Below, in pieces: positions 63 through 20,039 of a stretch of DNA of 20,039 bases. Made by a program: the position numbers and the translations under genes. The notes under the pieces were generated by a model. That model saw only the letters and a program-made list of their open reading frames with translations, did not search any database and was not told the origin of the DNA. The DNA comes from a virus: positions 1-20,039 of the IMG/VR virus record IMGVR_UViG_3300021425_003593. One strand, 5' to 3'. How positions within the stretch are numbered: the stretch's first letter is position 1; the number at the start of each line of letters is the position of its first letter.

Positions 63-440
63 ATGTCACGTTTTTCAGATATAGATTTAAAATTTATACC
101 ACATCCTATAACTCGTAAAGTTAATAATCTTGATGCGAAGTCTGCTATTTTTCGGTCATTGAATCATATTTTATTTACAAGAAAAGGTGAAAGGTTATAT
201 AATAATTCATTTGGTGTTGGTATACAAGATTATATATTTGAAATCAATAACTTTGTTCTTCAAGACAATATAAAAACTGAAATAAAAACTCAAATAGCAA
301 ATTTTGAACCAAGAATAATATTAGAGGACTTTCTTTTAGTAGAAGATTTGCATAACATTGAAATTTCAATATATTTTCGTTTAAAATCAGAACCTTCAGA
401 ACTACTTGTTTTTGAAAAAACACTCAAACGAATAAGATAA
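63..440 (+). CDS. 25: Baseplate wedge protein, gp25-like
   Basis: The 125-residue product matches T4 gp25 (132 residues) in size and character. In T4, gp25 belongs to the baseplate wedge and is the family that helps nucleate the tail sheath. Visible support is the EPR tripeptide in NFEPRIILEDF (about residues 80-90), a motif conserved across gp25-type sheath initiators, followed by an alternating beta-strand pattern ending in a basic tail. The N-terminal half has the usual conserved block around AIFRSLNHILFTRKGERLY. The stop codon is immediately followed by the ATG of the gp6-like gene, with no spacer, which suggests translational coupling. Like gp6 it should be an intracellular virion-assembly protein made late in infection. 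The family assignment is firm; no oddities were seen. Confidence 0.85.
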   Translation: MSRFSDIDLKFIPHPITRKVNNLDAKSAIFRSLNHILFTRKGERLYNNSFGVGIQDYIFEINNFVLQDNIKTEIKTQIANFEPRIILEDFLLVEDLHNIEISIYFRLKSEPSELLVFEKTLKRIR

Positions 441-2327: not shown

Positions 2328-5300
2328 CAACTCCTAAAGATCTAATCGAGAGCCAACTTCCTGGTTACTTTCTCGAGCAATACCCACAATTTGCCGAGTT
2401 TGTCCGAGAGTATTATAATTTTCTTGAATCATCAGTTCTAGTTCTTGATCAAATAAAGAATGTTCAAGAAGGTGATTTTATCTATGGTTCTCTTTCAAAA
2501 GCAAAGGGAGTTGTAAAAACAGTTACACCAGATCGAATTTATTTTGATTACTTAACTAAAGATAATCAATTCTATAAAGATGAAGTAATTGTAAACGGAA
2601 CTTCAGGTGAAATATATTTTATACGTTCTCTGTATAAAAATATCTATCAATACATCGCAGACATTGAAGAAAATTCAGTCTATCAAACTACACTCACTCT
2701 TTTCAAAAAATATTTTCATAAAAATGTTTCTTTAGACCATAGTATTTTTCGTAAACTAGATCCTAAAACTCTTACGAAAAAAATTCTTGACTATTACAAA
2801 AAAAGAGGAACAGAAAATTCATACTATTGGTTTTTTCGAATATTTTTTGATGAACCAATTGACTTATATTTTCCCAAAGTTGATATCCTAAAATTATCTG
2901 ATAGTGGTTATTATCGTGAAAATTTAGTTGCGATTAAAAACCACGACACACCATCTCAACTTTCCCAAAAAAGAATATACGGTACATCATCAAAAGCCTC
3001 AGCAATATGTCGTAAGATTATTTCGGCTTCAAATAATGGTGTGGTTAGTATGTACATGGATCTTGTGTATTTGAATGGAAAATTTACTGCTGGTGAAAAA
3101 GTCAATATATTTGATATGACAACTGGTGAAAAAGTAACCGAAGTAATTATTGACTTTTCAGTTACTGACCTAAAAATAGCTGATGGTGGTATTGGACATG
3201 AAGTTGGTGATGAATTTAGATTTGCTGATGGACGAGCAAGAGTTACAAAACTTGAAGAATATTCAATTACAAAGATGACGATTGAAGATCCTGGTATTTG
3301 TTATGCTCTTGGTGATGAAGTCATTTTTGAAAATGATTTTACTGGAGCGACAAAATTTGCTAAAGCTCATGTTTCAGCAATCTATAAAGACCCATCTCTG
3401 ACAACTTTTTTCAATAGTCAATTCAATAAAATAAAGAATCATGAGTTATCAAAATTTGCTCATGTAAAATTAGATGATCCTTTGTTTTCTAATGCTACAC
3501 AACCTGCTAAAGATTCTACACTTAATCAAATTCTTCCTGCTTCAATGTTTCCAGCTTATGAAGTTGGACAAATTCAAGAGATTACATTTGAAGATTCTGG
3601 ACTTGATTATAAATTTGCGCCACCAGCTTATGTAAATTCATCAATTCAAGAAGCTCAGACAATGCTTGTCTTTGATTTGTTATTAGATGATAGTGATGCA
3701 AATAATGATTTTATTGTTACAAATACAACAATTGAATTATCTGGTGCTGGAACAAATCTAAACAATGATGCTTACTATATTGGCGATGTGTCTGTTACAA
3801 ATAGTATGATTCTACTTCCGGGCCTTTTAGCAGAAGATCATATTGCTAAAAGATTTGCTTCCCAAAGGTCAATGGCTGATTTAGAAAATGATGCGATATT
3901 CACTTTTACTGATACTGGTGGAAATGTTCGTACCTGTAAAATTGTAGATTTAGTAAATGTACAACCTCTCAGTGATACCGCAAAAATAACGGCACATTTA
4001 GGTGATGGTGTAGCTGGTCTTGAGATTTTAGAACCTGCTCTTCAGAAGGGACGAAACTTAACACCTTTCTTTTTCAATGCGCCCGAAACTAAGAATTTTA
4101 GCAATCCTCTAAGAGAACCAAATTATCTCCGTTGTCAGCACGGCTTGACGTTTGAAGTTGAACCTGTATTTGACGTTCATCATCGTCCTTATGAAGAATA
4201 TCGTAACAATCAAAGTATGCTATCTTCTGATAAGTATTTCTTTGACAACTATTATTATCAATGGTATTCTTATGAAATCATTACAAAAATACCAGCAACA
4301 GCAATCGAACCGCTTCTTCTTGACGAACTTCATCCAGCAGGTTTCTTAGCTTTCATTCGCAATCGTTTTGATTCTGAATTTAGGCTTCGATTTATGAATT
4401 TTGAAATGCCTGAGATTGAAATTGAATCACAAGGCTACTGCCATTCTGTAATTTATCCTCATATGGAACAAGAATGGGAAAGATTTGGAGAACTTACTGT
4501 TAGTCAAATATTACAGCCTGAACTTGAAACCGATCTAATGCAGTATGAAGTTGTCAAAGCAAAAGAATATACTGAAATTGATGTTGATGGTATAGCTGAT
4601 ATCTATCGAGCTTTCAAGTATTTTATTGATGATACTGTAATACCTCCGCATTGGTCAGGTGTTCGTAGACCTTGGAAATTTGATAACCGTGACGTAGGGT
4701 TTGGTACAAGAATAGGTAATAATTCAAGGCGCTCAATTGTTCAGAGAACTGTATCAGAAGAACAAGTTCTAATTGCGAATACACATCGTAGTCTTGATGA
4801 AGAATTTGATGATTATATGAGTGACTTATCAGAGCCTCACATTTCAACCAATAGTGCTGTCTATGACCTATTGATGGCCACACAATCTTGGACAAAACTG
4901 ATTAATGTAGAAGACAGAGCAAACTGGATCGCACAAACAATTGGAACTCGTTCGGGTCCAATTGAAACAATGGCAGATAAGACAATTCACCAACATCGTG
5001 TTTGGATTGATGACCTCAAAACATATATTTCAGGAACAAACATTGGTGGTATGATCATTGCGAGAGATCCATTTCTATCACCAATTACATCTGCGAATAC
5101 ACTAGGTGCTACATTTGATTCAGATAATGTTCAGATGGCAAACTCATTGGCTGATTTCTCACAGTCAATCTTCACCGCAGCCGCTGATTTTAGTTCTTCA
5201 GACTTAACTTTAGATAGTGGAAATATTGGATTTAGTTTTGCTCGACAAACCGCTTTCATGCCAGTTGTAACTGGTAACTCACTGTCAAAACAAGGTGCTT

Positions 5301-8300
5301 ATTTACCTGATGCTGAAATTCTAACAGAAAACGGTTGGGTTCAATTTCAAAATTTAGAGTATGGTGTCAAAGTTGCTGAAGTGCGAGCCGATGGTATTGT
5401 AAAATATACAGAACCTTCTGAAGTCTATTCAACTCATTTTGAAGGAAATATTTACACATATACTGATGGTTCAACCTTTTCAATTACAGTAATCTCAGAT
5501 CAAGAACTAGCTTTAAGTGATACACATGACCTTTTATATAAGAAAAAATCAAGTGACATCAATCTCTCAAGAACTTCTGATGGTATAGCAATTGTAGATG
5601 ATACAATCGTTGAAGCTGGTAAAAGTCCCATCGCAGGTAAAATTCCAGTCAAAAATACTGTAAAGGTAATCAAAAGTAGATATTCAGGACCTCTATTTTG
5701 TGTGATGATTAATAACTTTGAAGGCTTTGCTAAGATGCCAACAGAGGCTACTGAAGTTGATATGGATGAACTTGAATTACACTATATTATTGATAACAGT
5801 TATACTTTACCGGAAATATACACTGATGAAAGTAAACGAGTAAGTGAAGAAAACTTTTCAGTTGACCTTGAATATAATCAAAATTTTATATTGCCCGTTT
5901 ATATGGAGCCAATTGTTTTTGATTATCAAAATCCAGAAGGGTTGGCTCTTCATGGGAATACAGCAAATGAATCAAATTATACACTGACTACAACCACTCT
6001 TGATGCTAATACATTAAATTATTCCCAAGATCATTATCATAGAATTCGCAATCCTTATCCGGAGGTGGCAGCGACCGAAATTTTTTTTTTGATAAGAGAC
6101 CAGAAGAGCGCCACCGGGGTTCCCTACGGCCTGGTGCCATCGATAGTGGCCTTGCCCAAAACAATGTCCCCGTCACTTGAACATGTTATTCTTGCCCGCC
6201 CTGACGTTAACATTTCACTCATACAAGATCGAGAAATAACTGTTGATTATGGAGGAGAAATCTTTCATTACTCCAATACAACCAACACGTATTTCTCAAA
6301 CTTAGGATTTGAGTCCTTTCAATTTTCCACTGTTGATATTGATGAAAGTTTCAAATGCGCTCCTGTACATGTAAAGGGTGTGCCAGAATCTCAACTCACC
6401 ATTGATATGTCAAAAAATTATTTTGAATTGGATGCGAATAATCATAATCGGCCAATTCAAAAAATTGTAATTGAAAATGTTCAATATAATCAAGCAAATG
6501 TAAGTACTTCAATTATACACACTGACCAACATTTATTTCATGATTGGCAAAGAAATTATAGTGTACTTGTTCATGAAGGTGAAAGTGCCAATGTTACAAT
6601 TCTTGGGTTTGAACAACAGGACCGCAATAAAGTATCTCTATTATCTTTTGAAACATGGATAAAAGCAAATGAAAAAACAGATATCAATGGCAGACCCATT
6701 ACATATTCAAAGGTAAATCTTTATAACATTGAACATTATGAATTACCTGAAGTAATTTCTTTTGTTGAAACAAGAAGAATTGAACATTATCCATTAGATG
6801 AAAGAATAAACATCAATCCATTAGCAATGGATCCTGATGCTTTGAATGATCCAAGAAATCGTGATGGGAATTTAATTTTAGATACCAAAATCAACGCATT
6901 TCAAAGAAGTGGTCATCATGGTAAGTTAATGTTTCCCTATGGCTTTAACTCAATATATGCCAAGTTTGATGAAAATCATTCCTTCTTTGATTTAGATACA
7001 ATTTATTATCAGCCGGGTGAACTTGAAGTAGCAATCAAAGTAGATTTTATTAACATTACAAATGTAAATGATTTTAAACTCAATGCTGTTTTTGATGAAA
7101 ATGATTTTTATGTTTTAGGTGAGTTAGTAGTTGATCCAAATATTGAAACAAATATTTATTTTGCTGCTGACAATATGAATGTTCAGAATGCTGTTGCTAC
7201 TTACCAAAGAAATTATACATTTGATTATAGTCAATATGATTTATATAATCGTCAAGAATTTATGGTTGAGTTAAGTAATCTTGATGGAACATCTTCAAGT
7301 TATTGGATAGTTGAACAAGAACGTGAATTTGAAATGCCTGTTGACGCAACAATATGGATGCCAGATGAATTTATTTTTGACAGAGAATTATTGAGTCATG
7401 TATTTGCTTATGGTGAAAGACCACCTTTACCTTTATTTGGTGATACTCCATTTGTATTTGATAGTAAAGAATATGCATTTGACCGAGGGTATTTTTATCC
7501 ACACAAAGGACTTACTTTCTGGGATAAAACAAATTTCATGGCTAAAATTGAAATGCCTCTTCTTGAAAATTGGTTTCACTGGGATAATGAACTCAAAAGA
7601 GAAAATATAAAAATCAAAAGTACTTTGATTAGTGGTGGAATTGATCCTGTCTTCTCCTATGAAAAACATAAAACAGATACAGCAAATAATATAAAAACAG
7701 TATTAGATTATGACCTTGAAAAGCATATTGGAAATCGTTGGTTATATTTTGATTTTGATAAACAAATTCGTAATGAATATACAGACTGGACTAACAAGGT
7801 ATTTGATCCCTGGTTGAAAGCACGAAGTAAGTCTTGGCTTGGTGATACAATACCTTCAGTCTCTGCTTATCATGAACCGACAATTTATTTGGCGCCAATG
7901 GAAAAGAAAATTCCAATGGTTGAATATGTTGAAACAGGATTAGAAGGAAACACAAACTTTATTGATAGCACAATTAATGATGACATTTATAATTATGCGA
8001 TTGAACATTTTCATGTTGAAGACCGTAATCCTTATTTTCAAACAACAGATATTATTGAGCCTTGGGTAAGAACAAGAATTTATGATTGGTTCAATAGTAA
8101 GTTTACTGATTACTTTGGTGATAAAATTCCAAGTGTTTCAGTTCTTTCTCATCCTAAAATTTTCACAGCAAATAATTATGTTGTAGATTTTGGATATGAA
8201 GCAACAACTACGATCTATTTCCCTAATACAACTTTCTTAGACGCAACTCCTGTTTTCACTGAAAGTGTTTTCGATGTAAAAACTAAACTTGCGATACCAA

Positions 8301-11284
8301 ATCGTAATTTACTTTTCATGCTTGATGATTTTGTTGAATATGATTTACTTAATGATTTGATTCGAAACGCATTTATTCCACAAAGACTTGTTGAGTATAC
8401 TAAAGATGGTTTACCAGGAGCCCTTGTAATTCCTCAAAATGAAATTGAAATAAATGCTCAAATAAATGAAGAAGCTGAAGACCTAAAAGGATATCAATTA
8501 CCTGTATATAACGCTGACCAAATTATATATTTCCCTAATACAACTTTCTTAGATGGTTCATCTTCAAGAGAAGTTTATAAAGTTGATCAATTAGAAGGTG
8601 TTGTCGACGTTGTAAACAAAAATACATCATTTGCTTTATTTGATATTTTCAATCATCGTTGGTTGAAAAGAAATATCAAAGAGTTTATGAAAATAGCGAT
8701 TCGCTTGAGAGACTGGGGAGGTGATACTATACCTTCTGTTCAATGTCATCCTCAAAGTGAATTTGAATATTCACCTCAATTATACTGGCATTATGGTAAG
8801 AATGTTGAAGATCAATATGTTGATGAAAATTTTGAAGGAACTAACTTTTCTTTTGATGTAAAAGATTATTATATACAAGACACAATTGTTTATTTTCCCA
8901 ATACAACTTTCTTAGATGCTACATCTGCAAGTGAAGTTTATATAAGAACTAACATTGAAAAAGAAAATAAAATTCTTGATTCACATCGTAACTTTGGTTT
9001 AACTGACATTATTGATTTTCAATTACTTGACCGTCAGTTGACTGGTGGTATGTGGAGTATGGTTTTGAGAGATTGGGCGACCGATACTTTACCTGGAGTG
9101 AGAGTTCTTCCTCATGTTGAAATTGATTATAAACCTCAATTATATTATAACTATACAGATTCAAAGAGTAAGTATGTAGATGAAAACTTTGATAATTATC
9201 ATAATCGTGATGTACAAGATTATTATATGCCAGAATCGATTTGGAATGATGGAAATACAACCTTCTTTGAACAAACTGTTCAAGCTTGGGATGCTGCTGT
9301 AAAAGTGATGGAAGATGTCAACATTTATGATAGTTGGAAAGTTTTTGCTCTGAGTGATAAGATCAAAAATAATCGACTTGACTATCCTATATCTGGGGAT
9401 ATGTTTGGTTTACCAATTACAAATTGGGGAGGTGAAGCGATTCCTTCTGTCTCTGCTAAAAATGAACCCGAAATTACCTATAAGCCTCAGTTATATGCCC
9501 ACTACTTTGATGCCGCAGATAAGTATGTTGATGAGCATGAAGATGCTTTAGCATTCAAAGATATACAACCTTTCTATTCAATTGATACTACACTATATTT
9601 TGCTAATACAACTGTTCTTGATGCTACTTCAGATGTTCCTTTACCAAGAACTTTGATTTATGGTGATGTGAATGTCTTTGACCGCAATCAATATATTTCT
9701 CTTGATGGTAGAATATTTGGAACTGATATTATTGATCATCAGATTGGAGATTATTTACTTGCAAAAATAGCGGTGAATAATCGTGAGCATATACCTTCAG
9801 TAGGTGCCAAAAGTATGTTTGAAATTACATACAATCCACAGTTTTATTCTCATTATAAAGATGCTGCGGATAAGTATGTTGATGATAGTCCACAAACAAT
9901 TATTCCTCAACAAAATATTCAACCATATTATTCTATTGATACAACTTTATACTTACCAAATGGAACTTTCTTAGAAGCTGGAACTGAAGTTCATGGTGAA
10001 TTCAATCAAATCTTTACAGAAAAAGATCATATTTCAGATCGATTTATTATTCGAGGTAATGAATTAATTATTGGGCTCTATACTCAACGCATTGAAGATT
10101 ATTTGAAATTTGAACTTGTTCAAGAATATGGTGAAATTACGAGAACAGTTAAAACAAATTATGAAAGCCAACAAGCAATTTCAATACCAAGAGATCTTTC
10201 TGATAATTCGCATGTAATGAATCCTTTAGCTTCGCCATTTGTTGAGTCTTCTGAGTTTGTATTACTCAATCATCATACAAATTTAATTGATTCTGGAATA
10301 TATGCGGGTGAAACTTTTGTCGAGTACAACAAAATTGATGACTTGAAAGTTGAAGAAAGTGTAATCAACTTACATGAAAAAATTACACAAGAGTTTTTGG
10401 ATCAACCAATTACTCATCGTGAATTAATCAAGAACACTTCTTATGATGTCAAGAAATCAAATCGCACTGTTGATGCTTCATCATACTTTACATTTGCGAT
10501 GTATAATGAATTCGAATTGAATGAAGATGGAGATAAAGTATCGGATATTCTTAAAACAAAACTCAAAGAAGTTCAGACATCACTCGAAACAGAAGCAAAC
10601 TTTGTTGATGGCTCAGGAGAAATTGCTGAGAAAGAATATGTATTTGAATTTTTAAATCAAGTAAAGAATGCTGACCGTATGATTGATACTGAAAAAAGAA
10701 TTGATCATAATGTATTGAATGAATATATTCTTGACCGAATGGATACTTTTGAAATTACTGATTCAATACGAACACATTTGAAAGGTGGGTCAGTTCATTC
10801 TTTGACAGAACAAATGTTTGAAATTAAAAAGTTCCGTCAGAAAAATTATAAAGATGGTGGATATGAATATACATCAGGTGTAAATTCAAATACAGCAATC
10901 ATGACTTCTTTGAATTTGGAAGAAAATGTCGAAGCCCCTTTCCAAATTTCTGAGTGTAAAATAAGTAATATAAATACTACAATGCTTTTAGGTGATGATT
11001 TTTTAATTTCTTCAATGTTGGGACCATATCTTGACGTTGATATATATAAAATGAATAATAAACGATTTAAAGCAAAGAGTTTAAAAAACGATTGGAGAAA
11101 ATTTACAAACACGAATTTACAGATGAAAACAGGTAGGTTAGAAGGTTATTTATGGGAAACTTCTAAACTAAATACATTTGTTACAGATTTTGAGGCAAGC
11201 ATCCAAGAAGTAGAGTTTTTGGAAAGTTCTAGAGGAATTGCTTATCCGATGTATGCTAATACAAAGTCTGAGTGTTTTGTTTAA
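2324..11284 (+). CDS. Giant baseplate/tail structural protein (gp7 position)
   Basis: This 2986-residue virion protein sits between gp6-like and gp8-like genes, where T4 has gp7 (1032 residues). The first 40 residues (LPGYFLEQYPQFAEFVREYY) resemble the start of large structural proteins of cyanophages and related T4-like marine phages. Residues about 286-340 hold two small GD-containing beta modules (GIGHEVGDEF, GICYALGDEV). HPAGFLAF at residue 670 resembles an HPAG motif of the same proteins. A Hint-like remnant covers about 991-1136, and degenerate 118-residue repeats cover about 1840-2556. I see no enzymatic domain or transmembrane helix. Likely role, inferred from position: the wedge scaffold, perhaps with a fibre-like extension. 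Oddities are its length, the Hint remnant and a GC-rich patch at residues 1246-1285. The reading frame is intact. Confidence 0.72.
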   Translation: MTTPKDLIESQLPGYFLEQYPQFAEFVREYYNFLESSVLVLDQIKNVQEGDFIYGSLSKAKGVVKTVTPDRIYFDYLTKDNQFYKDEVIVNGTSGEIYFIRSLYKNIYQYIADIEENSVYQTTLTLFKKYFHKNVSLDHSIFRKLDPKTLTKKILDYYKKRGTENSYYWFFRIFFDEPIDLYFPKVDILKLSDSGYYRENLVAIKNHDTPSQLSQKRIYGTSSKASAICRKIISASNNGVVSMYMDLVYLNGKFTAGEKVNIFDMTTGEKVTEVIIDFSVTDLKIADGGIGHEVGDEFRFADGRARVTKLEEYSITKMTIEDPGICYALGDEVIFENDFTGATKFAKAHVSAIYKDPSLTTFFNSQFNKIKNHELSKFAHVKLDDPLFSNATQPAKDSTLNQILPASMFPAYEVGQIQEITFEDSGLDYKFAPPAYVNSSIQEAQTMLVFDLLLDDSDANNDFIVTNTTIELSGAGTNLNNDAYYIGDVSVTNSMILLPGLLAEDHIAKRFASQRSMADLENDAIFTFTDTGGNVRTCKIVDLVNVQPLSDTAKITAHLGDGVAGLEILEPALQKGRNLTPFFFNAPETKNFSNPLREPNYLRCQHGLTFEVEPVFDVHHRPYEEYRNNQSMLSSDKYFFDNYYYQWYSYEIITKIPATAIEPLLLDELHPAGFLAFIRNRFDSEFRLRFMNFEMPEIEIESQGYCHSVIYPHMEQEWERFGELTVSQILQPELETDLMQYEVVKAKEYTEIDVDGIADIYRAFKYFIDDTVIPPHWSGVRRPWKFDNRDVGFGTRIGNNSRRSIVQRTVSEEQVLIANTHRSLDEEFDDYMSDLSEPHISTNSAVYDLLMATQSWTKLINVEDRANWIAQTIGTRSGPIETMADKTIHQHRVWIDDLKTYISGTNIGGMIIARDPFLSPITSANTLGATFDSDNVQMANSLADFSQSIFTAAADFSSSDLTLDSGNIGFSFARQTAFMPVVTGNSLSKQGAYLPDAEILTENGWVQFQNLEYGVKVAEVRADGIVKYTEPSEVYSTHFEGNIYTYTDGSTFSITVISDQELALSDTHDLLYKKKSSDINLSRTSDGIAIVDDTIVEAGKSPIAGKIPVKNTVKVIKSRYSGPLFCVMINNFEGFAKMPTEATEVDMDELELHYIIDNSYTLPEIYTDESKRVSEENFSVDLEYNQNFILPVYMEPIVFDYQNPEGLALHGNTANESNYTLTTTTLDANTLNYSQDHYHRIRNPYPEVAATEIFFLIRDQKSATGVPYGLVPSIVALPKTMSPSLEHVILARPDVNISLIQDREITVDYGGEIFHYSNTTNTYFSNLGFESFQFSTVDIDESFKCAPVHVKGVPESQLTIDMSKNYFELDANNHNRPIQKIVIENVQYNQANVSTSIIHTDQHLFHDWQRNYSVLVHEGESANVTILGFEQQDRNKVSLLSFETWIKANEKTDINGRPITYSKVNLYNIEHYELPEVISFVETRRIEHYPLDERININPLAMDPDALNDPRNRDGNLILDTKINAFQRSGHHGKLMFPYGFNSIYAKFDENHSFFDLDTIYYQPGELEVAIKVDFINITNVNDFKLNAVFDENDFYVLGELVVDPNIETNIYFAADNMNVQNAVATYQRNYTFDYSQYDLYNRQEFMVELSNLDGTSSSYWIVEQEREFEMPVDATIWMPDEFIFDRELLSHVFAYGERPPLPLFGDTPFVFDSKEYAFDRGYFYPHKGLTFWDKTNFMAKIEMPLLENWFHWDNELKRENIKIKSTLISGGIDPVFSYEKHKTDTANNIKTVLDYDLEKHIGNRWLYFDFDKQIRNEYTDWTNKVFDPWLKARSKSWLGDTIPSVSAYHEPTIYLAPMEKKIPMVEYVETGLEGNTNFIDSTINDDIYNYAIEHFHVEDRNPYFQTTDIIEPWVRTRIYDWFNSKFTDYFGDKIPSVSVLSHPKIFTANNYVVDFGYEATTTIYFPNTTFLDATPVFTESVFDVKTKLAIPNRNLLFMLDDFVEYDLLNDLIRNAFIPQRLVEYTKDGLPGALVIPQNEIEINAQINEEAEDLKGYQLPVYNADQIIYFPNTTFLDGSSSREVYKVDQLEGVVDVVNKNTSFALFDIFNHRWLKRNIKEFMKIAIRLRDWGGDTIPSVQCHPQSEFEYSPQLYWHYGKNVEDQYVDENFEGTNFSFDVKDYYIQDTIVYFPNTTFLDATSASEVYIRTNIEKENKILDSHRNFGLTDIIDFQLLDRQLTGGMWSMVLRDWATDTLPGVRVLPHVEIDYKPQLYYNYTDSKSKYVDENFDNYHNRDVQDYYMPESIWNDGNTTFFEQTVQAWDAAVKVMEDVNIYDSWKVFALSDKIKNNRLDYPISGDMFGLPITNWGGEAIPSVSAKNEPEITYKPQLYAHYFDAADKYVDEHEDALAFKDIQPFYSIDTTLYFANTTVLDATSDVPLPRTLIYGDVNVFDRNQYISLDGRIFGTDIIDHQIGDYLLAKIAVNNREHIPSVGAKSMFEITYNPQFYSHYKDAADKYVDDSPQTIIPQQNIQPYYSIDTTLYLPNGTFLEAGTEVHGEFNQIFTEKDHISDRFIIRGNELIIGLYTQRIEDYLKFELVQEYGEITRTVKTNYESQQAISIPRDLSDNSHVMNPLASPFVESSEFVLLNHHTNLIDSGIYAGETFVEYNKIDDLKVEESVINLHEKITQEFLDQPITHRELIKNTSYDVKKSNRTVDASSYFTFAMYNEFELNEDGDKVSDILKTKLKEVQTSLETEANFVDGSGEIAEKEYVFEFLNQVKNADRMIDTEKRIDHNVLNEYILDRMDTFEITDSIRTHLKGGSVHSLTEQMFEIKKFRQKNYKDGGYEYTSGVNSNTAIMTSLNLEENVEAPFQISECKISNINTTMLLGDDFLISSMLGPYLDVDIYKMNNKRFKAKSLKNDWRKFTNTNLQMKTGRLEGYLWETSKLNTFVTDFEASIQEVEFLESSRGIAYPMYANTKSECFV
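5294..5740 (+). other. Degenerate Hint/intein-like domain within the giant protein
   Basis: Residues 991-1139 resemble a Hint (Hedgehog/intein) fold. LPDAEILTENGWVQFQNL (994-1011) matches intein block A, the stretch around SITVISDQELALSDTHDLLY (1053-1072) matches block B, and SGPLFCVMINN (1121-1131) resembles the GPVYCVTVP strand near the C-terminal end of such domains in T4-like phage proteins. Splicing residues are lost: the position of Cys1 is Tyr993 (or Ala992), the block B TxxH is SDQE (1058-1061), and no terminal His-Asn followed by Cys/Ser/Thr is seen. It should therefore be a fixed, non-splicing domain. Assigned from motifs only. Confidence 0.55.
6059..6180 (+). other. GC-rich compositional island inside the giant gene
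   Basis: By hand count 65 of the 120 bases at 6061-6180 are G or C, despite a run of ten T at 6081-6090; the flanks are clearly AT-rich. Codons such as CCC, GGC, CTG and GCC, rare nearby, cluster here. The giant frame stays open and reads PEVAATEIFF and onward. The frame beginning at 6061 is also open (GGGSDRNFFF onward) until TGA at 6178-6180. The hexamers GGTGGC (6064-6069) and GCCACC (6110-6115) form an inverted repeat around the T run. Origin unknown: a small recombination insert, paired indels or an assembly error are all possible. Confidence 0.6.
7841..9990 (+). repeat. Degenerate tandem repeats of about 118 residues in the giant protein
   Basis: Two motifs recur in phase. GDTIPSV-type motifs begin at residues 1840, 1932, 2133, 2253, 2370 and 2487. 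FPNTTFLDAT-type motifs have their Pro-equivalent at residues 1967, 2071, 2192, 2310, 2427 and 2545. In the last four copies of each the spacing is 117-121 residues, or about 354 bases. Between them lies a third shared block, YKPQLYxHY followed by KYVDE, seen four times. Copies have diverged in sequence (for example NDGNTTFFEQ and LPNGTFLEAG), so this is an old protein-level duplication rather than a simple DNA repeat. Such arrays usually build elongated beta-rich shafts; that reading is inference. Confidence 0.8.
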
Positions 11285-11314: not shown

Positions 11315-14164
11315 ATGCCCGCATTAGTGCATACTACTTTTCGTGTAAGTAACGCAAAGCAATTTAAAGAAAGCTTTGAGGAAAAAACAGAACATGGTGT
11401 AGGTGGATACATTCCTTTAGCGAATATGAACGTTGATCCTGCTACTGGAGAACCTTCTCTTGGTTCTGATCTTTTACAGGGAGACGGTAACAAAATTCCT
11501 TTCTATGCTCTTGATGACCAAATGTATTTGTTTATTGGTCGTGTATCAGCTTGGAATGCTTATGATACTACAGACGGTGTTCCTAACCCAAATATCAACG
11601 AGAATGCTCCACCATTCCCAGTTGATAGTATGAAAGATTCTCATTTCAATCACTGGGATGATATGATTGCTGCTAAAAAAGTATCAGCAAAGGAAGTTTC
11701 TCATGTAATCAAACGAGAACGTGCCGATGAAATCCAGGAAGGTGTAAGAAACTGGAAAATCGGTATGCGATATGATGGGTATGATGACCGTGCAGATAAC
11801 CTTTTTGATGATGACATTCTAATTCATACTGTAAACGAAAGATTCCGTGTTTATAAGTGTATGAAACAAGGTGTTGGACGTTTTCAAAAGTATGCTCATG
11901 ATCCAGTAAATATGAATTTAGCCAGTGTATTTCCTTTGGATATGACTTACAAAGATGGTAGTGATAACCTTTATATCTGGAATCATAATTCTTTCCGAGA
12001 ACCACAAACTACAATCACGGATTCTGGACTGTCTGAAGATTTTATGACAATCGGTAATGAATTTAATGATGGTTATCAATGGAAATATTACTATACAATT
12101 GATGCTGGTGAAGCACTCAAATTTGTAACAACTTCTTATATTCCTGTACGAACTGTTCGTAAAGAAAATGGTGAACGACCAATTGATTATACAGATCAAT
12201 ATTACATGGAAGAGAATGCTCGTCCAGGTGCGATTATGAATGTGCTTGTAGATAAAGCACCTGTTGAAAAGTCAGATGGAACTGTTCTTGGATATGAAAT
12301 CACTGGTGGTGGATGCGGATTCTTCCAGTTGGCATTTGAAAATTGTCAGCTAGACATCGATCATGCAACCAAAGAACTCAAATTTACAATAAATGACCTT
12401 GTTGCTGACTTAACACAATGTCATTGGCCAGATGCTAATGTAGCAGTTAGTTATGTAGATACTGCCTGTAATCAAAATAGATTTGATATTGGTAATCCCG
12501 CTGACGCAACAACAAACGGCCCAGGTCTCGACGGTATGCTTCGAAGACTATTTGATAGTGCTACACCGGCTGCAGCTAACGCTCTTGGTGACATCATGAG
12601 AGGATATTCAGTTTGGATTCGTGAAGGTATGACTAATACGGCTGCTGACAATAACATGCATGATCGTTACGGATCAATTGCCTGGGAAATTACATCTGTC
12701 GGATGGGCCGGCACTAAGCTTGAACTGTTCTGTGACCAATCTGTTTATGAGAAATATGTAGGAACATCTCATTATGACAAGTCACTCACACCTAAAACGG
12801 GAATTGACGTTGCTACTGATATTGGTGCGTTAGCATCACATACTGGCCTTATACTTGAAATTCATCCTAAAGTAATTGTGAAAGCAAATCATCAATCTTC
12901 AACAGTATCTGATACTGTTGATTCTTTTGAAGCAATTGCGATTTGTGAACCATTCTTTAGTGCTGCCGAAGTGGATGCAGGTAATGCTGCTACCGCTTAC
13001 CAACAAGCCGCTCTTGGAAGGATTGTAGATGTTCGTGTGTTAAATCCAGGACGCTATCATTATCGTATTGATAGTTGTGAGTTGGCTGCTAATATCGCAG
13101 AAGTATTTGATTCAACTACAGTAATTGGAGGAGCATTTGCTCTTCTTGGTGGTGGAGCATACTCAACTTATCAAGTATGTGCTGGTGTGGCTCCAACATT
13201 CCAAACTAGTGCTGCCGCTGTCGGACTTGCAGACGCAGGAAGAGTACCAGCAGAACCTAAACTGTTTGCTTCAATTCCTCCCGTTGGTGGACACGGATTT
13301 GATCCAGTTGGAGAACTTGGTGGATTCAATGTTATGATTAACGCTCGTTTTGAAGGAACTGAATCTGATGAGTTCACAGTAGGTAACGAATTCCGAAAGA
13401 TTGGTATTCTGAAAAATCCTTTGGGCTACACAAATGCGGCTTCTTATGTTGGTGGACACGATGGTGGATATACTGATCCAGATGCCAGAATCGCATTGAA
13501 TACTTTGTGGATGGAGCCTTCTGAATACTCACAATTGTTCAGAGGATATAAAACTGACCAATGCTATCGGTTTAACTTAGATAATGATACATATGTACTA
13601 AGCGATCCTCATGCCACAGGTGATATTGTCAATTTTGAGCCAGACATGGATATTCAATTTATTGCGAATAATATGAATAATACTATTGGTGATGGAACAT
13701 TTACTACATGGAAGTCTGCTACACGTGTAAATCCAGATGGAACACCTTTTGAGTATGTTGACGGTGACGTCATCGCAACAGCAAAACTTGTTGACCATGA
13801 CCGAATCAATAAGAAGATTCGTGTAATTAAGCCAAGAGGAGATTTCTATACTGTTCTACAAGGACACGCACCTGCTCCTTTGCAGATTCAGTCTATAACT
13901 CATCATAGTGTTAAAGGTGAAGAAATTTGGGGTACCTCAAAACTAGGAGATGAACTTGCTGAAGAGCCAGGTATGATGCCCGGTTCTGGACAGATTTTGT
14001 ATGTTGAGAATCGCTCAATGGTGTCAAGATCGCAGAACCAGACAGAGGACCTAAAAATCAGTATCCAATTCATTGATTCCGACATCAAAGTTGACACTGC
14101 ATTCAACAACCTTGATGTGTTAAGTGATGTGGCACCTGACTTTTTGACAGGTGTTTGGAAGTAA
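11315..14164 (+). CDS. 8: Baseplate wedge protein, gp8-like, strongly enlarged
   Basis: T4 gp8 is a 334-residue wedge protein; this homologue has 949 residues. Its N-terminal part follows gp8: LFIGRVSAWN (about 72-81), APPFPVDS, HWDDMIAAKKV, a HVIKRER stretch (T4 has AVIPRRDW), YDGYDDRADNLF, then FRVYKCMKQG and DGYQWKYYYTI. The gp8 C-terminal signature is also clear: GQILYVENRS followed by QNQTEDLKISIQF (about 891-919; T4 has EMIYMENRP and DQTEEINILF). Between them, about residues 330-700 form a large insertion rich in Ala and Gly, and the DNA there appears less AT-rich than in the neighbouring genes. The start is set by AAGGAG seven bases upstream. A terminator follows the stop, so it closes the baseplate operon. 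Confidence 0.87.
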   Translation: MPALVHTTFRVSNAKQFKESFEEKTEHGVGGYIPLANMNVDPATGEPSLGSDLLQGDGNKIPFYALDDQMYLFIGRVSAWNAYDTTDGVPNPNINENAPPFPVDSMKDSHFNHWDDMIAAKKVSAKEVSHVIKRERADEIQEGVRNWKIGMRYDGYDDRADNLFDDDILIHTVNERFRVYKCMKQGVGRFQKYAHDPVNMNLASVFPLDMTYKDGSDNLYIWNHNSFREPQTTITDSGLSEDFMTIGNEFNDGYQWKYYYTIDAGEALKFVTTSYIPVRTVRKENGERPIDYTDQYYMEENARPGAIMNVLVDKAPVEKSDGTVLGYEITGGGCGFFQLAFENCQLDIDHATKELKFTINDLVADLTQCHWPDANVAVSYVDTACNQNRFDIGNPADATTNGPGLDGMLRRLFDSATPAAANALGDIMRGYSVWIREGMTNTAADNNMHDRYGSIAWEITSVGWAGTKLELFCDQSVYEKYVGTSHYDKSLTPKTGIDVATDIGALASHTGLILEIHPKVIVKANHQSSTVSDTVDSFEAIAICEPFFSAAEVDAGNAATAYQQAALGRIVDVRVLNPGRYHYRIDSCELAANIAEVFDSTTVIGGAFALLGGGAYSTYQVCAGVAPTFQTSAAAVGLADAGRVPAEPKLFASIPPVGGHGFDPVGELGGFNVMINARFEGTESDEFTVGNEFRKIGILKNPLGYTNAASYVGGHDGGYTDPDARIALNTLWMEPSEYSQLFRGYKTDQCYRFNLDNDTYVLSDPHATGDIVNFEPDMDIQFIANNMNNTIGDGTFTTWKSATRVNPDGTPFEYVDGDVIATAKLVDHDRINKKIRVIKPRGDFYTVLQGHAPAPLQIQSITHHSVKGEEIWGTSKLGDELAEEPGMMPGSGQILYVENRSMVSRSQNQTEDLKISIQFIDSDIKVDTAFNNLDVLSDVAPDFLTGVWK

Positions 14165-14184: not shown

Positions 14185-14216
14185 AAAGGCAAGTCGTTAA
14201 GGCTTGCCTTTTTTTT
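14185..14216 (+). terminator. Rho-independent terminator after the gp8-like gene
   Basis: AAAGGCAAG at 14185-14193 pairs perfectly with CTTGCCTTT at 14203-14211 around a nine-base loop, and the stem runs into a T tract at 14209-14216. It lies 21 bases after the gp8-like stop and ends the + strand transcript. The T tract overlaps the stop codon of the - strand endonuclease gene (14215-14217), so the same stem lies immediately past that gene's end; only a short T run follows it in that direction. Confidence 0.9.
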
Positions 14217-15266: not shown

Positions 15267-17270
15267 TCAAGAAGTGACAACTGGTGCGCCATTGATAAAC
15301 ACACCATAAGAGTTTACTGTAAGATTTGTTCCACCGGCAATAATTTTGATTGTTCGTGCTTCACCTTGTTGATCTGATGCTCCAGTTCCAGAAGAACCTC
15401 CTTCTCCAAGTAAAATCACTGAACTATTCAAATCCTTTTCTTCATAAGCTTCGATAGCAGCAGAATAAACATAAGGTCCGCCCATATATCCAAGGTCTGA
15501 ATAATCAGAAAATGTTTGTTGAGCAAGTGATTCACCTGTAAGTGTTCCACCAGTTTCAATAACTCTTGTGAATAGATTCTTGACTTCAAGATCATTTGCT
15601 GCAATTTCATCAGCAGAAATTACAGCAGAACCTGAAGATAGATTATTATCAACTAAGAACTTGATTGCTTCAGTAGTAGCAAGTGTGTTATGATTGGTAG
15701 TTGATGCTGTTATAAGTGTTGTGATATCCGTAACAACTTGACCACCCTGAATACTGAGTGAGTTTAGCCGAGCAGATAAAGAATTATCAGTAAGAAGATT
15801 GTAAACAGCATTTGCGGTAACTAATGTAGTATCATTGATTGTTGTGAAATCAGTTGCGATTGAATTGACAACAACATTACCACCAGGACCCGCACCAGGA
15901 AATGAAAATGTATTTGCGGAAATGGGTAGAGGAGGAACACTGACAACAGCACCTGTAAGTAAATCATAGATGGCGCCTGTTGTCGCAATTGTTGTATTGT
16001 TTGTATTTGCGGCATCAATCATGTATGTAATTGCATTGACTGAATAACCCGCAAGAGTAAACAATGTGTTTGCGCTAACAGATTCTACATTTCCTGAACC
16101 CAAGAATTTATGAATCGCATTTGTAGTTGCGAGAGTGTGGTCGTCTAAACTAAGAATATCTCTTGAAATCGCATTGATTGTGATTTCAAAAAGATTGGCT
16201 GTGTTTGAAAGGAAAAATTCTTTTGAAGAAAGATAAGGAACTGTCAGACTGTTTGCAATATTGGCTGTATTACCAACAAATAGGTGACCACCAACGAATA
16301 AATCTTCACTAATATTTCCAGTATTTGCTGTAACATTATAATTTAAGAAAATATTGTTTGCTTGAATTTCTAAATCATAATTTCCACTTTCAAGGTAGTT
16401 TTGAACAGCAAGTGTAGAAGGTAGTGTATTACTTTGAATTAGAGTGAAATCATCTCGTATTGAATCAATTAGATGAGTTTTGATTTTAAGTGAAGTTCCT
16501 TCAAGTGTTCGTATGTCTTTGTCTGCTCCACCAACTAACTCATAAATACCTTTGGCTGTAATTAGAGTTTCATCATCATTATGTGTAACAAAATTATTGG
16601 CAATACGAATAACTTTATTACTACCTGCTTCACGAAAATCAAGTGAACCCAACTTCAAATCTAAAGGTGAGCCTGAGCCTGACAACCAACCCTCAATTGC
16701 TTTAGCACTTACAACTACTGAATGTGATACATCTGAAAAATCATGTTTGAATCGGTAGATTGCCCCATCTGAACCGGGGAGTGTTATTTGTCTTGGTTTC
16801 AAGTCAAAAGAATTATGCGGATGTCTCACACCTCCCAAAAGTTCATATATAGCATTTGCTGTAATTGGCTTATCATAATTACTCACATATCTTGATTGAA
16901 CCATATCTGGTACCTGAAGTACCTGGTCTAATTCATATCCATCACCAAAGTTAATCGAATTTGCTTTTAACTTTAATCTTAAAGCTGTACCTCCTGTTAA
17001 TAAATCATAAATCGCTTTTGAAGTAGCAAGAGTGTTATGATTATTTGTAAAGAAGCTTTGTTGAATCGAATTGATTGTATAACCAGAAAAACTTATAGCA
17101 CTTGTATCAATTGTATTCGCTGATAACGAACCGCTTGAATCAAACCGAACCATAACATTTGGTTGAAATACAGAATTAGCCAAATTGAATTCATCAATTA
17201 CATCATTAATTCTGTTCATAAATTCGCCAAAGGTATTTGACGAAAGAAGTGGCTGTATATAATAACTCAT
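15267..17270 (-). CDS. Repetitive fibre-like virion protein
   Basis: This 667-residue protein lacks a signal peptide or membrane helix. Its start, NTFGEFMNRINDVIDEFN (residues 12-29), resembles the N-terminal segment of many T4-like marine phage virion proteins and may attach it to the tail. Residues 66-541 contain nine copies of a roughly 50-residue unit ending in a TLATxxAIYxLLTG-type helix, a style common in phage fibres. A stretch at 318-345 (GNISEDLFVG, HLFVGNTANI) resembles short G-x-V-G-N beta repeats of trimeric fibres. The C-terminus (about 560-667) is Gly/Ser-rich and could be a tip or trimerisation domain. It is probably a tail fibre or neck/whisker-type fibre, but I cannot tell which. 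The start has only a weak upstream GGA. It is transcribed away from the divergent gene at 17367. Confidence 0.65.
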   Translation of the reverse strand: MSYYIQPLLSSNTFGEFMNRINDVIDEFNLANSVFQPNVMVRFDSSGSLSANTIDTSAISFSGYTINSIQQSFFTNNHNTLATSKAIYDLLTGGTALRLKLKANSINFGDGYELDQVLQVPDMVQSRYVSNYDKPITANAIYELLGGVRHPHNSFDLKPRQITLPGSDGAIYRFKHDFSDVSHSVVVSAKAIEGWLSGSGSPLDLKLGSLDFREAGSNKVIRIANNFVTHNDDETLITAKGIYELVGGADKDIRTLEGTSLKIKTHLIDSIRDDFTLIQSNTLPSTLAVQNYLESGNYDLEIQANNIFLNYNVTANTGNISEDLFVGGHLFVGNTANIANSLTVPYLSSKEFFLSNTANLFEITINAISRDILSLDDHTLATTNAIHKFLGSGNVESVSANTLFTLAGYSVNAITYMIDAANTNNTTIATTGAIYDLLTGAVVSVPPLPISANTFSFPGAGPGGNVVVNSIATDFTTINDTTLVTANAVYNLLTDNSLSARLNSLSIQGGQVVTDITTLITASTTNHNTLATTEAIKFLVDNNLSSGSAVISADEIAANDLEVKNLFTRVIETGGTLTGESLAQQTFSDYSDLGYMGGPYVYSAAIEAYEEKDLNSSVILLGEGGSSGTGASDQQGEARTIKIIAGGTNLTVNSYGVFINGAPVVTS
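15648..17075 (-). repeat. Nine-copy, about 50-residue protein repeat in the fibre gene
   Basis: The conserved AI/AV pair near the end of each unit falls at about residues 86, 140, 191, 241, 288, 385, 433, 488 and 535. Spacings are 47-55 residues, except one of 97 between copies five and six, twice the unit. Each unit runs ANxLxF, VNSIxxDF, TLATxxAIYxLL; examples are NTLATSKAIYDLLTG and TTLVTANAVYNLLT. The gap (about 295-365) holds GNxxVGN-type sequence instead, so one unit may have been replaced or degenerated. Confidence 0.85.
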
Positions 17271-17366
17271 GAATTTTTTTCCAGATATGTTCGTTATAAA
17301 TGATTATTGGTTACTTTTATTTATCATACTAAATACTATCTTTATAACAACCAACAAGGAGTAAAT
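17271..17366. promoter_or_regulatory. Divergent control region with late-promoter-like octamers
   Basis: The 96-base spacer separates the - strand fibre gene and the + strand exported-protein gene. On the + strand TATAAATG (17295-17302) is one base from TATAAATA and 65 bases ahead of the ATG at 17367. On the - strand GATAAATA (read 17325 to 17318) lies 48 bases ahead of the fibre ATG and is identical to the octamer at 34-41. AAGGAG at 17356-17361 is the ribosome site for the + gene. If both octamers work, the two transcripts would start within a few bases of one another and overlap. Confidence 0.4.
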
Positions 17367-17912
17367 ATGAATTCGATTAGAATCCTTGTTATGGCTGTGT
17401 TGACCGTTTTTCTTATGTCCATTCCTGCCCACGCTGAATTACATTCAGATACCGTCATTCTTAATCATGCCGAATATGTTGATATTCGCCGATCTCTTTC
17501 AAGAGGAGGTGTTCTCTATCCGATATATTATACCTCAAAAGAAGATCTTTACGCATATCCAATTTCGATTGCATGCGAAATGTCCAACACATATTATGAT
17601 GATCTGTTTTCTGTACTTGAAGAACAGTATAAAGATTATGAACTTGAAGCAACAACTTATAAAGATTTAGGTGTGACAATCTATGAAACAAAACATCCTT
17701 ATGCTCTCAAAGAAATTTATCGAGACTTAGATGTTCTTGACATGCATTCATACTGCCAGTTAAATGGTGTCACTAATCATCCTGATATGGGATTAACATA
17801 TGTTGTGCCCATAGAGGGAGAAACTTCGCCTGCGGGAAATACTATGACGTGGTGGACGAAGTTTGATCGAATGCTGACAACTTTTCCAAGTTCATTCACT
17901 CCTAAAAAATGA
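17367..17912 (+). CDS. Small exported protein of unknown function
   Basis: The 181-residue product starts with a textbook signal peptide: MNSIRILVMAVLTVFLMSIP then AHA before ELH, so cleavage after Ala23 is likely. An upstream in-frame ATG at 17307 would hide this signal and has no ribosome site; the ATG at 17367 has AAGGAG six bases ahead (17356-17361) and is preferred. The mature part is rich in Tyr, Asp and Glu, with just two cysteines (Cys70 and Cys130) that could form one disulfide in the periplasm. There is no lipobox, transmembrane helix or catalytic motif I recognise. Its stop abuts the stop of the convergent cyclase gene. Possible roles are a periplasmic partner of that receptor, an envelope-modifying or exclusion factor; none is shown by the sequence. 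Confidence 0.75.
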   Translation: MNSIRILVMAVLTVFLMSIPAHAELHSDTVILNHAEYVDIRRSLSRGGVLYPIYYTSKEDLYAYPISIACEMSNTYYDDLFSVLEEQYKDYELEATTYKDLGVTIYETKHPYALKEIYRDLDVLDMHSYCQLNGVTNHPDMGLTYVVPIEGETSPAGNTMTWWTKFDRMLTTFPSSFTPKK

Positions 17913-20039
17913 TCACATAAAATGAATCATTCTGCGTTCTGCTGAGAGATGTTCACCTTCCTCACTACATCGTTCAAGATAAATCTTCGCAACGTGATCC
18001 GAAGGGTCACCCTCTAAGATTTCACGGAACAGAAGTTCAGCACGAACAAAATCTTCTGATTGAAATGTATCATATGCTCGGTCAAAGAGAGGGAGCAATT
18101 TTTGCTTCCTCGTGATCATCTCCTCTGTGTAGACATCTAAAACCTGAAAAATATCGGTTTTTTCTTGTTTCCCTTTCACTGCTACTCGGTCTATCATTCG
18201 GAGCCGGTAGCGAGACTCTGGGAGCTTCTGGACCGTATGTCCAGACAATAGCACCGGCACATTATAGTACTTGGTCATGGCTTCGAGCCGGGCAGCGAGA
18301 TTGACCGCATCTCCAATCACTGAGGTTTCCATACGGTCATGAGTTCCTAATGTCCCAAGCATCAATCGTCCTGAGTTAATTCCAACACCAATCTTGATTG
18401 GATTTTGATCATTTGCAATCAAATGATTGTTGAACACTTGAAGTTCGTGAATCATATCGATCGAAGCATCAACTGAATCTGAAATTTCACGATGAAAAAT
18501 TGCCATGATTGAATCCCCAATGAACTTGTTCACAAAACCATGATTCTTTTTCACAATTGGTGTCATATGATTCATGTAATCATTGATGAATTTAAAATTT
18601 TCTTCAGGTGTCATCTTCTCACTGATTGTTGTGAAGTTACGAATATCAGTGAAAAGAACTGCCATATCATAGGCTTTTTGCTGACCGAGTGTAATATCAA
18701 CAATGCTTTTCTTGTTCAATAATAAATTCAATTCTTCTGGCACAAAACGAGCATAGGATTCTTTGAGTGCTAATTGTGTTGTCAAATACTCTGATTCTGT
18801 CTGTCGTATCTTGAGTGTTGCGGTCACACCTAATAGACAAATCAAACCACCTAATAAAAATTCTGAACTGGGTAAGGCATCAAAAGGCACGTTGAATTTT
18901 AGAATCAAAGTATATTTGACTGGTATCAGCAAAAGAAATAACATGCTGACTAATAATGAAATTGAATATGACGTACCTCTCTTACAAGATATAGTTGCAA
19001 AGATAATCAAAGGAATCAACTGAATCATCCAAAAGATAATAATCGATAAAGGTGGTATGAAAGAAGGGCCTAAAGGTATATCATAGATTGGAAATTGATT
19101 TAAGTTTGTTTCAAATTCTGTAGGAAATAAGAAGAGTAATAGTATATTACCAATCAAAGCAAATACAGTAACACTTTGCATTACAATTTGAATTCTTTTA
19201 AGATTCTTATAGTAATGCTCAGTTTGAATCATAATATAAACAAACTGATTATATGAGAGAATTCCAAGACCAACTATAATCGCATATAGATTTGAAATTG
19301 AAAAAAGCTTTGGCGCATGAATATAATAGCCAACACCTATTTCGCCGAACGTATATAAGGAGGCAGTACAGACTGTGATTGTAAAAAGAAATAGATTATA
19401 TAATCGAAAGTTGATCAGAAGTGTGATGAGAAAATAAAGAGCAAAAGTCCAAGCAAAAACAACAAAGATTGATTTTGAACCTATCGTGAAGAGAATATCT
19501 TTTTCAAGTGTGTCCCATTCTGTTAGATATATTTGTTCATATGGTCTTGTATTTCCATACCAACGATTATAAGGATTTGCTTTTATCCAGCTATAAATTG
19601 TAACAGAAGAACTAGGAGAAATTCGTATACGAATGTTATCATATAAATCTAAACCTGTCAATGATTCAAGAATTGAAAACTCATTATGTATATAAGTATG
19701 CTTCTCAACTTGATCTCTTACTTCAGCATAAACATATGCTTCTTCTAAATTTTCATGACTAAGACCAAAGTATGTAAAGTTTGTTGTATTATGAACTGTT
19801 AACTTGATCCAAAATCCACGAACATATGACTGTTCATTTTCTAAACTGTCTTTCCATTCAGCTTTTTCTAAGTCAGCATAAGACCTATTTTTATTTCCTC
19901 CTAAACGATTCTTTGTTTCAAGATAAGAAACATAAGTTGATAGGTCAATTTTAGATTTTTCTTTTGATTGAATAATGTATGTTTCTTTTGTGTATGCTAG
20001 AGTAGCGATCAATAACATACACAAAAAAAGAAATAATGA
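17913..20039 (-). CDS. 7TM receptor-type class III adenylate/guanylate cyclase (5' end outside window)
   Basis: The frame remains open to the right edge (SLFLFLCMLLIATLA ahead of YTKE), so the start lies beyond 20039; residues here are numbered from TTG at 20024. After an export signal, residues 20-170 resemble a 7TMR-DISM extracellular domain (FWIKLTVHN at 71-79). About seven hydrophobic helices follow, near 186-206, 209-228, 243-266, 281-300, 322-345, 352-372 and 388-404, then a linker. The cyclase domain spans about 450-630. Metal aspartates are Asp460 (LFTDIRNFT) and Asp504 (FIGDSIMAIF), base-selecting Lys is Lys500, and transition-state residues are Asn575 and Arg579 (GDAVNLAARLE). The second base-contact position is Ser568, where class IIIb adenylate cyclases have Thr. 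Residues 640-690 look TPR-like. Probably an inner-membrane sensor making cAMP; cGMP is less likely. Confidence 0.88.
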   Translation of the reverse strand, partial: SLFLFLCMLLIATLAYTKETYIIQSKEKSKIDLSTYVSYLETKNRLGGNKNRSYADLEKAEWKDSLENEQSYVRGFWIKLTVHNTTNFTYFGLSHENLEEAYVYAEVRDQVEKHTYIHNEFSILESLTGLDLYDNIRIRISPSSSVTIYSWIKANPYNRWYGNTRPYEQIYLTEWDTLEKDILFTIGSKSIFVVFAWTFALYFLITLLINFRLYNLFLFTITVCTASLYTFGEIGVGYYIHAPKLFSISNLYAIIVGLGILSYNQFVYIMIQTEHYYKNLKRIQIVMQSVTVFALIGNILLLFLFPTEFETNLNQFPIYDIPLGPSFIPPLSIIIFWMIQLIPLIIFATISCKRGTSYSISLLVSMLFLLLIPVKYTLILKFNVPFDALPSSEFLLGGLICLLGVTATLKIRQTESEYLTTQLALKESYARFVPEELNLLLNKKSIVDITLGQQKAYDMAVLFTDIRNFTTISEKMTPEENFKFINDYMNHMTPIVKKNHGFVNKFIGDSIMAIFHREISDSVDASIDMIHELQVFNNHLIANDQNPIKIGVGINSGRLMLGTLGTHDRMETSVIGDAVNLAARLEAMTKYYNVPVLLSGHTVQKLPESRYRLRMIDRVAVKGKQEKTDIFQVLDVYTEEMITRKQKLLPLFDRAYDTFQSEDFVRAELLFREILEGDPSDHVAKIYLERCSEEGEHLSAERRMIHFM

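Follow-up and report, generated by a model that had tools for sequence, protein, structure and literature searches.

We found that a 20,039-base stretch of viral DNA, IMG/VR virus record IMGVR_UViG_3300021425_003593 (hereafter the window), ends in a gene for a receptor-type class III nucleotide cyclase (17913..20039, minus strand), which is its last open reading frame (ORF) and is open to the contig edge. On balance, we lean towards the view that a group of uncultured T4-like phages carries this gene as accessory cargo, and that it encodes a receptor adenylate cyclase that would reset the infected host through cyclic AMP (cAMP) together with PilZ proteins and cyclic di-GMP (c-di-GMP). The catalytic domain is complete and its residue set is that of an adenylate cyclase, as is evident from the sequence, and the gene is very likely located in a phage genome, a location that is seen from one side only.

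The catalytic domain (residues 454-627; 18159..18680, minus strand) matched the Pfam family PF00211 (Guanylate_cyc) with an E-value of 2.3e-22 and a score of 79.9 bits, well over the cut-off of 21.9, and this was the sole Pfam domain found in the cyclase at E 0.01. In the numbering of the 708-residue frame, D465 and D509 are the metal residues, K505 and S573 the base residues, and N580 and R584 the transition-state residues. In an alignment of 70 domains, all six were kept in each of the five phage sequences with seven transmembrane helices (7TM). The original prediction of a receptor-type class III nucleotide cyclase, made from the sequence of the window, is thus borne out by the family match and the catalytic residues, and the Asp460, Lys500, Asp504, Asn575 and Arg579 that it listed are all present, at positions 465, 505, 509, 580 and 584 of the longer frame. 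Its residues were exact; its numbering ran from an internal TTG, which is not a likely start given that the relatives begin with MKS. Among solved structures, photoactivated adenylate cyclases come closest (E 3.6e-27) and CyaB follows lower in the list; the photoactivated cyclase 5x4t carries lysine and threonine at the two base positions of the alignment. A lysine paired with threonine or serine at these positions is presumably the mark of a class IIIb adenylate cyclase. Lysine at the base position is described as typical of adenylate cyclases and glutamate as typical of guanylate cyclases (PMC4886424).

The frame in the window encodes 708 amino acids, and its two N-terminal codons lie beyond the contig end. 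The relatives have their ATG start (MKS...) only two codons ahead of the point where the frame in the window begins, so the gene is practically complete. Its frame is unbroken in every full-length copy, and the ratio of nonsynonymous to synonymous substitution rates (dN/dS) is 0.146-0.21 (Nei-Gojobori, whole gene, six pairs), with synonymous divergence among pairs reaching 1.4; at the sequence level, the gene is evidently maintained under purifying selection. The GC content of the cyclase is 34.2%, compared to 34.0% for the window. Recombination between phage lineages is visible at the 3' end of the gene in the pattern of identities: in the last four 100-base blocks compared (~17930-18340), the window and the L003 contig are 93-100% identical, and in the blocks upstream they are 63-86% identical, the window there being nearer to L002.

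When viral contigs were scanned with the cyclase protein, five relatives emerged (75-89% identity, two of them partial), and in total seven contigs, including the window, carry the cyclase at the same place, at 72-89% identity to the window. A second scan with the baseplate protein gp8 returned 14 loci, of which 12 are informative for the cyclase position, as L025 and L032 end before it. The cyclase is found in six of the 14 (L033, and L026, L027, L031, L034 and L036, which are the same contigs as L004, L003, L005, L002 and L006, respectively). The other six informative loci do not have it at this place (L028, L029, L030, L035, L037 and L038) and represent about three genotypes, L029, L030, L035 and L037 being nearly alike. 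Since L003 and L004, from two datasets, are identical over 12,887 bases, and L005 and L006 show only 3 differences in 11,152 bases, the seven cyclase-bearing contigs amount to about five genotypes. The order of fibre gene, convergent small secreted protein and cyclase that forms the junction in the window recurs exactly in L002, L003 and L004, which makes a chimeric join near 17300-17900, the failure that the original prediction had named, most unlikely. L005, L006 and L033 also have the cyclase at this position, with another small gene instead of that for the secreted protein. Their interval between gp8 and the cyclase holds a 174-residue protein, a short ORF, a 765-residue ORF and an ORF of 417 or 418 residues, and the match of the 765-residue ORF (L031, L033) to the fibre protein of the window is limited to 95 residues.

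One of the cyclase-bearing contigs, the 84-kb L003 contig, is of T4 type: eight of its ten scanned proteins have matches in T4-type families (replication, nucleotide or tail). It encodes DNA polymerase, UvsX, replicative helicase, primase and both ribonucleotide reductase subunits, as well as baseplate hub and wedge proteins. It is colinear with the 146.5-kb L038 over about 71 kb of the latter (55-127 kb), except for one match out of place and two swapped neighbours. L038 has no counterpart of the cyclase, the two PilZ genes or the secreted protein of the L003 contig, and the cyclase model found no match in its record. Together, the seven contigs, the T4-like L003 contig and the matching GC content make the phage-borne location considered in the original prediction very likely. 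A search for gp23 (PF07068) found no match anywhere, controls included, and is uninformative. The L003 contig also carries a dihydrolipoyl-dehydrogenase-like gene (L019:6072-7523) that has no counterpart in L038. Its nearest match among plasmids is to marine Gammaproteobacteria at 44%, which is too weak for the host to be named.

Upstream of the cyclase start lies a compact row of genes, which in L002 runs towards the cyclase as RCC1 repeats, a SOUL-family gene, PilZ1 and PilZ2. The intervals with the two PilZ genes and the SOUL-family gene are L002:452-2062, L033:19296-21113 and L003:1-1037, and the SOUL-family protein of L002 has, on reading of its sequence, a lipoprotein-like N-terminus. 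PilZ1 overlaps PilZ2 in L002 and L003, and the stop codon of PilZ2 overlaps the cyclase start in all three distinct relatives that reach it (L002, L003 and L033); in L033, an additional 207-residue protein lies between the PilZ genes and the contig ends in SOUL. PilZ matches were found in four of 12 records; of the seven records with the cyclase, these are the ones that extend past its start. All three PilZ2 proteins (L002, L003, L033) contain RxxxR together with DxSxxG, which we take to fit the c-di-GMP motifs of PilZ receptors (RxxxR and D/NxSxxG). A search of 120 Spirochaetota genomes with PilZ2 at E 1e-6, which had no positive control, gave 0 matches.

The cyclase protein starts with a signal segment, continues with about 165 residues of ectodomain and seven membrane helices, and ends in the catalytic domain and a C-terminal tail. 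At a hydropathy threshold of 1.3, all four full-length phage proteins show an N-terminal segment and exactly seven transmembrane (TM) segments (residues 191-413), in agreement with the earlier estimate of about seven helices; the stricter threshold of 1.6 does not pick out the second of these helices in the window protein. The helices (residues 191-411; 18807..19469, minus strand) are 7TMR-DISM_7TM-like, with no Pfam match above cut-off, and they are spaced like those of L058, a spirochaete protein in which Pfam finds 7TMR-DISMED2 and 7TMR-DISM_7TM. The predicted periplasmic ectodomain (residues 18-185; 19485..19988, minus strand) may be 7TMR-DISMED2/RetS-like, on weak evidence. The tail (residues 637-698; 17946..18131, minus strand) also occurs in spirochaete cyclases, and at its position four of ten bacterial proteins scanned have TPR matches below cut-off. 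When a profile of the four phage rows was compared by hhalign to 17 spirochaete sensors of 7TMR-DISM type (eight of which were scanned with Pfam, all eight having 7TMR-DISM_7TM and two also DISMED2, the remaining nine being chosen by length and match), it scored 78.9% in register, and the reversed and five column-shuffled controls scored below 1%. Single phage sequences scored 33.5-93.4% against the spirochaete sensor profile, and seven of eight non-cyclase multi-TM control proteins scored 0.2-5.9%; the eighth scored 91% and itself carries a 7TMR-DISM_7TM match below cut-off. VIA-align of the ectodomain model placed the RetS periplasmic domain first among 996 chains (119 residues, rmsd 4.7), with a Z of 6.0 that lies within chance range, unrelated folds following within 1 Z. 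Foldseek ranked RetS second (E 0.066) and found nothing at E <=0.001.

Several of these results speak against placing the sensor in the 7TMR-DISM family. Pfam gave no sensor match above cut-off in the phage cyclases and did not find PF07695 (7TMR-DISM_7TM), its best sensor match being 7TMR-DISMED2 (PF07696) at E 0.033, in L003 only and below cut-off. An HMMER model of the 17 spirochaete sensors did not match the phage proteins, a model of the phage sensors found nothing better than E 0.059 among the bacterial ORFs examined, and the phage profile scored just 0.4% against the 7TMR-DISM-like kinase that had served as the eighth control. Besides the chance-range Z value, the ectodomain model itself was poor (predicted local distance difference test, pLDDT, 52.5), as was the AlphaFold2 model of the whole cyclase (pLDDT 34.4, five alignment rows), so that the structural matches are no more than suggestive. 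Taken together, the results make 7TMR-DISM membership of the phage cyclase likely, not proven; the DISM-like ectodomain of the original prediction is more weakly supported, having no Pfam match above cut-off.

We propose that the receptor would be inserted in the inner membrane of the host during infection, where it would dimerise. Its RetS-like ectodomain would bind a periplasmic ligand, perhaps a carbohydrate or an envelope fragment, upon which cAMP would be made. This cAMP would act via the cAMP receptor of the host itself, because no protein that binds cyclic nucleotide monophosphates (cNMP) was recognised on the phage contigs: the cNMP-binding domain was found in none of 12 records, which are fragments, and the control matched 11 of 14 genomes. 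The PilZ2 partner could couple the cAMP signal to c-di-GMP, and this might change the surface structures of the infected cell, or how it adheres, moves or uses carbon, to the benefit of the phage. As far as the sequence allows us to judge, the protein most likely serves as a source of cAMP that is gated by a ligand and acts on the lifestyle of the host. A surface or lifestyle role is the most natural guess since the 7TMR-DISM receptors RetS, LadS and NicD function in biofilm control (PMC6107284). Two points count against the proposal: the effect on surface or motility is guessed by analogy with bacteria, and the two c-di-GMP motifs occur together in none of the three PilZ1 proteins. It is possible, and we put it forward only tentatively, that the genes form a portable two-messenger cassette, in which a spirochaete-type 7TM cAMP receptor, a co-translated c-di-GMP PilZ protein and a SOUL lipoprotein would let the phage sense the periplasm and reset the lifestyle or surface of its host. 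The pairing of a cyclase with a c-di-GMP-type PilZ protein makes it a testable question whether infecting phages both write and read the second messengers of their host.

The original prediction held that no T4-like phage was known to carry a cyclase, which is wrong. The Kyanoviridae HTVC008M (a Pelagibacter phage) and Melnitz (a Methylophilales phage) carry receptor cyclases of class III, likewise near baseplate genes in T4-like genomes, and an adenylate cyclase in curli clusters of pelagiphages of Podoviridae and Myoviridae has been published, with a regulatory role discussed (PMC9599517). In contrast to the cyclase described here, those of HTVC008M and Melnitz have a CHASE2 sensor (PF05226), which had no match in the window protein, and they follow CsgF, CsgG, curlin-repeat and FecR-type genes; their matched part is 26.5-35.5% identical to the window. 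The word 'cyclase' occurs 0 times in the main text of the Melnitz paper (PMC9004378), and a literature search found neither a tested function for phage receptor cyclases nor a paper describing a phage 7TMR-DISM cyclase. By their predicted domain make-up, the present phages thus add a second kind of phage receptor cyclase beside the CHASE2 type. The existence of a second type, with another sensor, apparent bacterial source and cassette, suggests repeated selection for phages that raise cAMP in the cells they infect. As in the pelagiphage clusters, three of five fetched alphaproteobacterial plasmid cyclases (L099, L100 and L102) stand directly after a FecR-domain gene. Among cellular systems, 7TMR-DISM cyclases of Spirochaetota (Leptospirales) have the same domain order and a matching C-terminal tail, and the catalytic part of a Leptospira interrogans cyclase is 40.6% identical to that of the window, whereas their sensors show no likeness to the phage sensor in either direction by HMMER. 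RetS, LadS and NicD resemble the phage protein in that the RetS periplasmic domain tops the matches of the ectodomain model, which is poor, and differ in that their outputs are histidine kinase or GGDEF domains (PMC6107284).

As to the origin of the catalytic domain, 20 matches at <=1e-75 came from 120 Spirochaetota genomes (best 7.9e-90), 14 at 1e-45 from 146 Myxococcota genomes (best 4.4e-79) and three at 1e-45 from 101 Chloroflexota genomes (best 1.7e-71). The best plasmid matches were from Leptospira (40.6%, query residues 426-693) and Legionella lytica (43.1%, residues 422-633), the latter a CHASE4 protein. In a quick tree of 70 domains, the five phage sequences fall inside a mostly spirochaete clade of 46 rows (Shimodaira-Hasegawa-like approximate likelihood ratio test, SH-aLRT, 99), next to L058 (SH-aLRT 88) and on a long stem of 0.76, in line with the spirochaete-like type that had been proposed. 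We use 'spirochaete-type' as safer than spirochaete-derived because the supports of the quick tree are less trustworthy and Pseudomonadota were thinly sampled, from plasmids only. The CHASE2 phage cyclases are placed elsewhere, so that on this tree the 7TM phage cyclase was acquired separately from them. A narrow scan for a close bacterial relative found 0 among 34 stretches, and a core-motif scan found three loci. A record deposited in GenBank as 'Acinetobacter phage MD-2021a' (L103) contains mfd, isc genes and cyaA in the stretch and resembles a bacterial chromosome.

We consider it highly improbable that the cyclase belongs to a bacterial chromosome and was joined to the phage by an assembly error or at a prophage boundary, yet the far side of the cassette gives this reading some ground. 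All seven contigs end inside the cyclase or within about 2 kb upstream of its start, none of the seven has phage genes beyond, and scans of viral contigs with RCC1, SOUL and PilZ1, which required exact peptide matches, missed the SOUL part of L033 and were not exhaustive, found none extending further upstream than L002. The original prediction had stated that purely chromosomal sequence beyond 20039 would remove the phage link; the sequence seen there, in L002, is the compact row of RCC1, SOUL and two PilZ genes, with no phage genes visible beyond it. RCC1, SOUL and PilZ look cellular, and neither the PilZ2 and SOUL proteins nor, at the DNA level, the 2,058-base stretch preceding the cyclase had any match in 50,697 deposited phage records. 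Set against this, the gene occupies one place in about five genotypes at identities down to 72%, the exact junction of the window being shared by four contigs (three genotypes) and other small genes intervening in three (two genotypes), and contigs from different datasets are identical over nearly 13 kb. The cyclase has the GC content of the phage, and the model of the phage sensor matches none of the bacterial ORFs examined. L003 and L033, from different datasets, end at the same base within SOUL and are 99% identical there (248 of 250 bases; L003:1-250) despite the clear divergence of their cyclases; we read this as both assemblies having broken off at a common stretch. If the gene is phage DNA, it might still be active cargo that is spread by recombination and is of no lasting use to the phage. 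Its absence from half of the informative loci and the recombination at its 3' end are what one would expect of such cargo; the low dN/dS at high synonymous divergence, which indicates purifying selection, and the intact frames in all full-length copies make this quite unlikely.

The enzyme might instead be a guanylate cyclase, or its ectodomain might sense phage or envelope damage for lysis timing rather than a nutrient ligand, which we consider unlikely. A lysis-timing role has been argued by the Melnitz authors for the curli pore of their phage (PMC9004378), but Lys505 is of the adenine type, guanylate cyclases usually having glutamate (PMC4886424), and no lysis gene was recognised among the cyclase neighbours scanned. 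Finally, it is extremely improbable that the gene is a phage-borne Pycsar-type cyclase that shields the infected cell from other phages. Ten PADLOC models of PycC do match the catalytic domain (best E 3.3e-18), but these models share the general class III fold, and both the general Pfam model and solved adenylate cyclases match better. The phage cyclase retains the adenine-type lysine with its threonine or serine partner, and where Pycsar pairs its cyclase with an effector, none was recognised here, the five neighbouring proteins scanned giving no PADLOC match. For interference with cyclic-nucleotide-based defence, raised in the original prediction, the sole pointer is a likeness to Pycsar cyclases, for which the common fold accounts. 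We retain the receptor adenylate cyclase acting on the host as our preferred reading.

The remainder of the window confirms that the cyclase stands near T4-like structural genes, as had been predicted. On the plus strand, gp25-like and gp6-like baseplate wedge genes (63..2327; Pfam and PHROG) are followed by a giant gp7-like wedge gene of 2986 amino acids (2324..11284; PHROG) and a T4 gp8-like wedge gene (11315..14164; Pfam and PHROG). The gene that lies between these baseplate genes and the cassette (15267..17270, minus strand) is called fibre-like from its position and relatives and had no Pfam or PHROG match. The small secreted protein (17367..17912, plus strand), which is convergent with the cyclase and abuts it, matched no family in Pfam (E 0.01), NCBIfam or PADLOC and had a single weak match to an uncharacterised PHROG (E 0.0045). 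Rfam at gathering thresholds gave nothing in the window, L002 or L033, and a tRNA search of nine loci found none. The frequency of TATAAATA and CTAAATA in the window, considered as possible late promoters, is no higher than chance. At 27-29 bases before a match to a ribosome-binding site and start of the secreted-protein gene, the sequence CTAAATACTATCTT recurs in the window, L002 and L003, and not in L033, which has no such gene. A GIY-YIG homing endonuclease gene with a NUMOD3 motif lies between gp8 and the fibre gene (14215-15144, minus strand); one is also found at L002:7175-7798 and is absent at that place in L003. The gp7-like protein far exceeds the PHROG profiles that it matches (497-978 positions), and repeats are visible in it by eye.

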